From Acidobacteriota bacterium (lineage in GTDB: Bacteria; Acidobacteriota; Terriglobia; UBA7540), in NCBI GenBank assembly GCA_902812465.1, contig CADDZE010000032.1, positions 1 to 44,909 of the forward strand: DNA of 44,909 nt, given 5' to 3'. The notes under the pieces were generated by a model. The model was given only the letters and a program-made list of their open reading frames with translations. It ran no database searches and was not told where the DNA came from. Each line of letters starts with the position of its first letter. Position 1 is the first letter of the stretch. Positions 32,800 through 33,919 of the stretch are shown piece after piece. A program made the translations under genes and the position numbers.

Positions 32800-33130
32800 A
32801 CCGAGCAGATCGGCGCCCGGTTATCTGCCGGGGCCTGAAAGGTCCAGCAGGCATGTCCGCGGCCGGACACCGGCATCCCAGAAACGGGCACTCGCCGGCT
32901 CCGGCCGAACCGCCTGAACGCACCAAAACCGCAAGCGCGGCGCTGCGTTCTGCGTCCGGCCTTCGCGCCGAAGTTCAAGGAAAGATGTCCGGTTCAAACA
33001 CGCCGCCAACTGGCGGGTGACCGCACGAACCTAGCTCGCTGCGCCGGCATCATAGTTGGTCGCCGGGTTGCATCCCGGAGCGTGGTGGCCGTGCCCCCAA
33101 ACGAAACTTTTGGAAACTAACGGCGGCCCA

Positions 33131-33152
33131 AACACGTATGAAACTATGTGTT
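33131..33152 (+). repeat. 8-bp stem-loop
   Basis: AACACGTA (33131-33138) pairs with TATGTGTT (33145-33152) with one G-U pair around the six-base loop TGAAAC. CC before and GG after could extend it past a one-base bulge. The strand is a guess from the direction of the next gene. Confidence 0.5.
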
Positions 33153-33203
33153 GGAAGGATGCGATGTTCATGATGGACGCACCTTGACGGCTTAGGGGCA
33201 ACT

Positions 33204-33230
33204 GGCCAGCATCAGGAAATAATGCTGGCC
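33204..33230 (+). repeat. 9-bp perfect stem-loop
   Basis: GGCCAGCAT (33204-33212) and ATGCTGGCC (33222-33230) pair perfectly around a nine-base A-rich loop. No T-run follows, so it is not a normal intrinsic terminator. It could be part of a larger structured leader or mark the end of the cus transcript. Confidence 0.5.
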
Positions 33231-33312
33231 CAGCTAACGCAAACGCGGCGTGCTGCGTCTAAAGAGAGGCCAGAAGGGTAAGAAGAGAAGTAAGAAGCGA
33301 ACTTGATAGAGA

Positions 33313-33417
33313 GGGGTTAAATAGATCGGGCGTCGCTGTGGTTTGGCGGCCTGGGCGACGCCGCGATCCCGTGGAAAGCTCGCGGCCCTGACGGGTCGGC
33401 GCCTTTCATTTAACCCC
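33313..33417 (+). ncRNA. Candidate structured RNA: multi-stem junction closed by a perfect 10-bp helix
   Basis: GGGGTTAAAT (33313-33322) and ATTTAACCCC (33408-33417) form a perfect closing helix. Inside, GATCGGGCGTCGC (33324-33336) pairs with 33355-33368 over 13 bp with a single bulged G (33363) and an 18-base loop. A third stem is CCGTG (33369-33373) with CGCGG (33381-33385). CCCGT (33368-33372) could instead pair with ACGGG (33391-33395), so two folds compete. It does not match any riboswitch consensus that I recall. It lies 136 bases before the ATG of a small secreted protein on the plus strand. Nothing proves transcription or strand. Confidence 0.5.
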
Positions 33418-33418
33418 G

Positions 33419-33468
33419 CGTCATTTTAGGAAGGCTTGTTTGAAAAAAGCAAGCCCTAAATGGTGACG
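33419..33468 (+). repeat. Extended imperfect hairpin next to the structured RNA
   Basis: CGTCA (33419-33423) pairs with TGACG (33464-33468) and GGCTTG (33433-33438) with CAAGCC (33450-33455). Between them an A/T-rich middle (CATTTTAGG/CCTAAATG) pairs with a bulge. The loop is A-rich. It follows the previous structure with one base between them. Confidence 0.5.
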
Positions 33469-33553
33469 AACCTTGACCGCACAGCTGGCAGCTGGCCGGA
33501 CTGCCTGGATGAACCGACTGATAACCGAAGAAGTAACGGAAAGGAGAACCCAA

Positions 33554-33919
33554 ATGTCCAGACGAGTCCGTACGCTTGCCTTGGCGGTGGCGTTCCTAAT
33601 GTGCCTTCCGGCGGTCGCCAAGAACAAGGATCGGGGCAGCGCCAATTTGACGATATCGCACGCGGTCACCGTGGGCGGAGTCCAACTTCACGAGGGACCG
33701 TACAAGGTCACTTGGGAGCATCACAGCCCGGGCCTTACGGTGAGCTTCAGCCAGCACAAGCAAGAGGTGGCGTCGGCTACCGCCCAAATGGTGGAGCGGC
33801 CGGTAACTTACGCCTCCGACTCGGTGTTGTATAACACCAACCCCGATGGCAGCTACACGCTGCTCGAGATTCGTATTGGGGGTACAAACCAGGCGATTGT
33901 CTTCCAGCAGCCTTCGTAA
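33554..33919 (+). CDS. Small secreted beta-rich protein, unknown function
   Basis: A 121-residue protein with a clear signal peptide (RTLALAVAFLMCLPAVAKN). The mature part alternates short beta-like stretches: ANLTISHAVTVGGVQLHEGP, YKVTWEHHSPGLTVSFSQHK, QEVASATAQMVERP, and LLEIRIGGTNQAIVFQ at the end. I recall small acidobacterial exported proteins with a similar 'value-TL-G-YKV-W' layout, probably a beta-sandwich, but cannot name a family. AAGGAG stands 7 bases before the chosen ATG. An in-frame ATG upstream would only add a non-signal extension. The gene stands alone, behind an unusually long and structured leader region, which suggests strong post-transcriptional control if that region is transcribed. 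Confidence 0.75.
   Translation: MSRRVRTLALAVAFLMCLPAVAKNKDRGSANLTISHAVTVGGVQLHEGPYKVTWEHHSPGLTVSFSQHKQEVASATAQMVERPVTYASDSVLYNTNPDGSYTLLEIRIGGTNQAIVFQQPS

Follow-up and report, generated by a model that had tools for sequence, protein, structure and literature searches.

Plasmid antisense RNAs of the pT181 RNAI type are structured molecules directed against a long 5′ leader. In Escherichia coli, IstR-1 and tisB make up a type I toxin–antitoxin system in which a stress-induced gene and the RNA gene diverge, the 5′ UTR of the former being complementary to the RNA (PMC4147584). In Acidobacteria, Acido-1 and Acido-Lenti-1 (RF01686 and RF01687) have been reported as predicted noncoding RNAs (PMC2864571). 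Here we describe a locus on a 44,909-nucleotide stretch of DNA from an Acidobacteriota bacterium (contig CADDZE010000032.1; the whole stretch is referred to as the window), which encodes an RNA of a new, uncatalogued family. The family shows strong covariation and belongs to a bacterial group in which few regulatory RNAs have been described. Its features in the window are collected in Table 1.

Table 1 Features of the RNA locus and of the adjacent gene (window coordinates)
Feature	Position	Strand	Basis or conservation
Structured RNA, three-way junction, ~105 nt	33313–33417	−, read 33417 to 33313	Covariance-model homologues, covariation, fold z −4.2
P1 closing helix, 5′ strand GGGGUUAAAUG, partner 33313–33323	33407–33417	−	Covariation on 36 homologues
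P1 closing helix, 3′ strand	33313–33323	−	Covariation on 36 homologues
Near-invariant apical motif GGCCGCCAAACC, tip of P3	33340–33351	−	Hardly varies across families
−10 box TAAAAT of the putative RNA promoter	33423–33428	−	TANAAT-type hexamer in 45/48 loci
−35 box TTGCTT, 18 nt spacer	33447–33452	−	Promoter scoring
ECF-type promoter motif GAAAC-N17-CGTA, facing the secreted-protein gene	33113–33138	+	Kept in 33/46 loci
Second ECF-type motif TAAC-N17-CGTC	33235–33259	+	22/46 loci
Small secreted-protein gene, 121 aa, signal-peptide-like start, predicted all-β; start 137 nt from the 5′ end of the RNA	33554–33919	+	

An earlier note on this DNA had proposed a new structured RNA here and had suggested a comparison with Rfam. 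The interval 33313–33417 has no match in Rfam 15 at gathering or relaxed thresholds (best relaxed score 13.1 bits, against a threshold of 181.5), and Acido-1 and Acido-Lenti-1, both of which are in Rfam, differ from it in that neither matches even when thresholds are relaxed. At the DNA level, the element was detected in 14 of 39 genomes from the same family, a set that includes the window's own genome; the matches typically begin on, or close to, closing-helix base 33313. With a covariance model (R1) whose input sequences all came from the family, copies were detected in 19 of 40 genomes at the level of the order and in 37 of 399 at that of the class; a refined model (R2) raised the latter to 45 of the 399, representing 28 of 136 genera. 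Opposite-strand model matches at known copies (below 33 bits), which occur because P1 is palindromic, were left out. R1 also matched 6 of 396 genomes drawn across the phylum; the sole match outside the class was weak (29 bits), had no promoter and is probably due to chance. The window's genome has one copy of the RNA, as is usual elsewhere, and no homologue was found on the annotated plasmids searched. In genus g2 (L055, L053, L056 and L069), RNA and gene are duplicated in tandem, with an RNA for each gene copy; these RNAs have diverged slightly and have kept their structure.

The perfect 10-bp closing helix that the earlier note had described (33313–33322 with 33408–33417) is present exactly as claimed, and its long arm with an 18-base loop and its third stem can likewise be found in the sequence. 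Folding of 33303–33427 gave a z-score of −3.4 for the plus strand (1 of 200 shuffles as good) and −4.2 for the minus strand (0 of 200). Across 36 homologues, 91% of cells are paired, rising to 95% in P1, where 6 of 11 pairs have changed on both sides. Both-side changes occur in 27 of the 35 pairs in all, compared with 16.8 in shuffles and 5 to 10 in slid versions, and the covariation score is 0.379, compared with 0.182 for shuffled and at most 0.084 for slid alignments. Compensatory base changes, which the earlier note had named as a check, are also found in 22 sequences outside the family used for R1 (28 of 35 pairs with both-side changes; score 0.421 versus 0.161 shuffled). These alignments were fitted to the covariance model and therefore lean towards it; distant members folded freely, one by one (for example, L078 and L087), adopt the same three-way junction without this bias. 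By these comparisons the structured RNA at 33313–33417 is real, its three-way junction being backed by compensatory changes. The single strand of the junction is pyrimidine-rich and resembles an anti-Shine–Dalgarno sequence, and the apical motif is close to invariant across families.

Competing, switch-like pairings of the strand CCCGTG, also pointed out in the earlier note, do exist in the window sequence. They were rejected as a property of the family: they are fully formed in only 1–2 of 32 aligned homologues, and the native inner P2 pairs are formed in 21–25 of 33. Judged by this alignment, they are a chance feature of the window sequence alone, and the conserved competing helices expected of a riboswitch were not found on the gene strand of the 32 homologues.

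The RNA is very probably made from the minus strand, rather than from the plus strand implied in the earlier note, because its promoter, T-rich tail, GNRA loops, z-scores and consensus folding, taken together, point that way. The closing helix is preceded on the minus strand by a sigma70-like promoter (TTGCAT, 16–18 nt, TANAAT), 5–9 nt from the first G. Of 48 loci, 45 have a hexamer that reads TANAAT or nearly so directly upstream of this G, and in most a −35-type TTGCAT, TTGCGT or TTGTGT stands 16–18 bases upstream of the −10. Promoter scores average 8.0 here; random positions give 5.5 (s.d. 1.1) and the opposite end of the RNA gives 6.1. At the level of the motif, these 45 loci have a putative promoter on the strand opposite the target, as expected of a cis-antisense RNA. 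The first 10 bases past the 3′ end of the RNA on the minus strand are 45% T, compared with about 25% farther on; no strong terminator follows P1 in the window. Ten members have GNRA loops when read as the minus strand and one when read as the plus strand; in 32 cases of 45 the minus strand has the lower shuffle z-score; and RNAalifold on 17 sequences gives −20.4 kcal/mol for minus versus −11.8 for plus. G–U versus A–C pair counts, a weak test, barely favour minus (69 to 45) and approach equality on structure-free alignments, and raw folding energy shows no mean difference between the strands.

In 40 of 46 loci, the strand opposite the RNA carries a gene of the secreted-protein family that begins 93–242 nt (median 130) from the 5′ end of the RNA, in keeping with the link to the 33554 gene drawn in the earlier note. 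Relatives of the 33554 protein occur in 20 of the same 39 family genomes, with the RNA about 250 bases upstream of the region that matches. The protein has no Pfam match above the cut-off, no NCBIfam match and no PDB fold match at E ≤ 0.001. Because this family has no assigned function, the RNA offers a way into its regulation. The exceptions (L059, L061, L080, L082 and probably L077) have other genes, at least some with a secretion-signal-like start; the module thus stands before other genes too, and wherever such a gene was seen it lay on the other strand. In L059 (1853–2536) and L061 (693–1403), the RNA precedes a different gene, whose similarity to metalloproteases is weak and below the cutoff; therefore, the module of RNA and promoter is not restricted to a single gene family.

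Promoters recognized by ECF sigma factors have an AAC element at −35 and CGTA or CGTC at −10. On the gene strand, G[A/G]AAC-N15-18-CGTA is found in 33 of 46 loci, compared with 0.8% of control windows and 2 of 46 loci on the other strand; TAAC-N16-18-CGTC is found in 22 of 46, compared with 2.1% of control windows and none on the other strand. By resemblance, these motifs look like ECF-sigma promoters. They are placed beyond the 3′ end of the RNA and point through the RNA region at the secreted-protein gene. Between the two in the window, at 33202–33233, lies an inverted repeat, CTGGCCAGCAT ... ATGCTGGCCCAG. A sigmaW gene has been reported to be stress-induced in Granulicella sp. WH15 (PMC7074687). 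Taken as sequence comparisons, the results support the structure, the strand, the promoter motifs and the linkage to the gene.

We favour, as somewhat better than an even bet, a model in which a constitutive antisense RNA restrains, or is titrated by, the ECF-sigma-driven mRNA of the secreted protein. The minus strand from 33417 to 33313 would be a separate small RNA gene, its transcript starting from the housekeeping (sigma70-like) promoter at the GGGG of the closing helix, folding as the three-way junction with its near-invariant apical motif and ending within or just past the T-rich stretch beyond P1. From the opposite strand, one or two ECF-sigma-type promoters would drive the message of the small secreted protein, which would traverse the RNA gene and make the RNA a perfect antisense of its 5′ leader. 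Made constitutively, the RNA would hold the leader in a duplex, with decay of that duplex or a block to translation as the result, until it is outnumbered through ECF transcription, and the message would in turn titrate the RNA. We infer the overlap of the transcripts in cells, their pairing and the direction of regulation. Because the ECF-type motifs beyond the 3′ end of the RNA point at the gene, the RNA would be antisense to a long 5′ leader: the message probably extends across the RNA region and would thus contain the RNA's complement within its leader, an overlap that the conserved upstream motifs, as motifs, imply. A housekeeping promoter and ECF-type promoters would thus face each other across one structured RNA, forming a testable circuit.

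This arrangement resembles IstR-1/tisB, where a stress-induced gene has, encoded opposite it, a small RNA that the stress does not induce and whose complementarity to the 5′ UTR falls far from the start codon (PMC4147584). The two differ in that complementarity is 21 nt there, whereas it would cover the whole RNA here, and in that the stress promoter is LexA-controlled there and ECF-type here. They differ also in the product, a short membrane toxin there; type I toxins are short and hydrophobic, typically under 60 aa, whereas the 121-aa protein here, with a signal-like start followed by a predicted all-β domain, is not toxin-like. The likeness to pT181 RNAI would lie in a long 5′ leader targeted by an antisense RNA that is itself structured and, in family f10, in a leader segment that might vie with the RNA for one complement. 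However, that competing segment is absent from the window and the window's family, and no conserved leader terminator was found in the window, where a simple pattern scan of 33000–33700 gave no terminator-like site.

The earlier note had left the choice between a leader RNA of the 33554 gene and an independent RNA, of which the latter fits best. A plus-strand leader, riboswitch-like or another cis element, with an incidental minus-strand promoter, would agree with ECF-type promoters that point through the region towards the gene, with a complement that also folds well and with G–U counts that barely favour minus. Yet the promoter that adjoins the RNA in 45 of 48 loci, the GNRA loops and the T-rich tail all indicate the minus strand, and the competing helices are not kept in relatives; we regard this explanation as improbable. 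A DNA palindrome or repeat without RNA function, such as a mobile-element end, would be suggested by P1, a perfect inverted repeat, and by the tandem units of genus g2, but covariation extends through P2 and P3, a promoter adjoins the element and there is usually one copy per genome, which leaves this explanation with hardly any weight.

Cis-antisense pairing alone would not require an apical loop as conserved as this one, and a second partner is therefore plausible; the near-invariant loop would predict such a binding partner. An independent, trans-acting small RNA or protein-binding RNA, its loop GGCCGCCAAACC contacting a protein or distant messages and ECF transcription mainly shutting the RNA off by collision, would account for the scant variation of the loop across families and for the anti-Shine–Dalgarno-like junction. 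It would also account for the recurrence of GGCCGCC, the start of the apical motif, in the gene leader of 13 of 20 f10 loci, as a shared binding site would recur (0 of 26 loci elsewhere; background 0.02 per such stretch). Against it, the place beside the same gene family, which trans action does not need, is kept in 40 of 46 loci, the genome contains only 4 copies of the loop complement and pairing of the RNA with the ribosome-binding region of the gene is no better than shuffled. We consider it possible, though on balance unlikely. The f10 leaders could also be read within the antisense model: the loop may imitate a segment of its target's own leader, so that RNA and leader vie for one complement. 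A single module would then hold two opposing promoters, and ECF-sigma transcription, of the envelope-stress type, would feed into a leader switch that the RNA controls. This elaboration is doubtful. Pairing of the f10 leader segment with the loop complement that its own message carries is predicted at p ≤ 0.05 in 8 of 20 loci, compared with 0 of 25 elsewhere; the duplicated segment behind it is seen in family f10 only, and the repeat is, by its distribution, a lineage feature. In L091 to L099 and other f10 loci, the leader GGCCGCC..AACC equals the apical-loop sequence and lies on the gene strand 30–110 nt past the 5′ end of the RNA, just before a hairpin and the ribosome-binding site.
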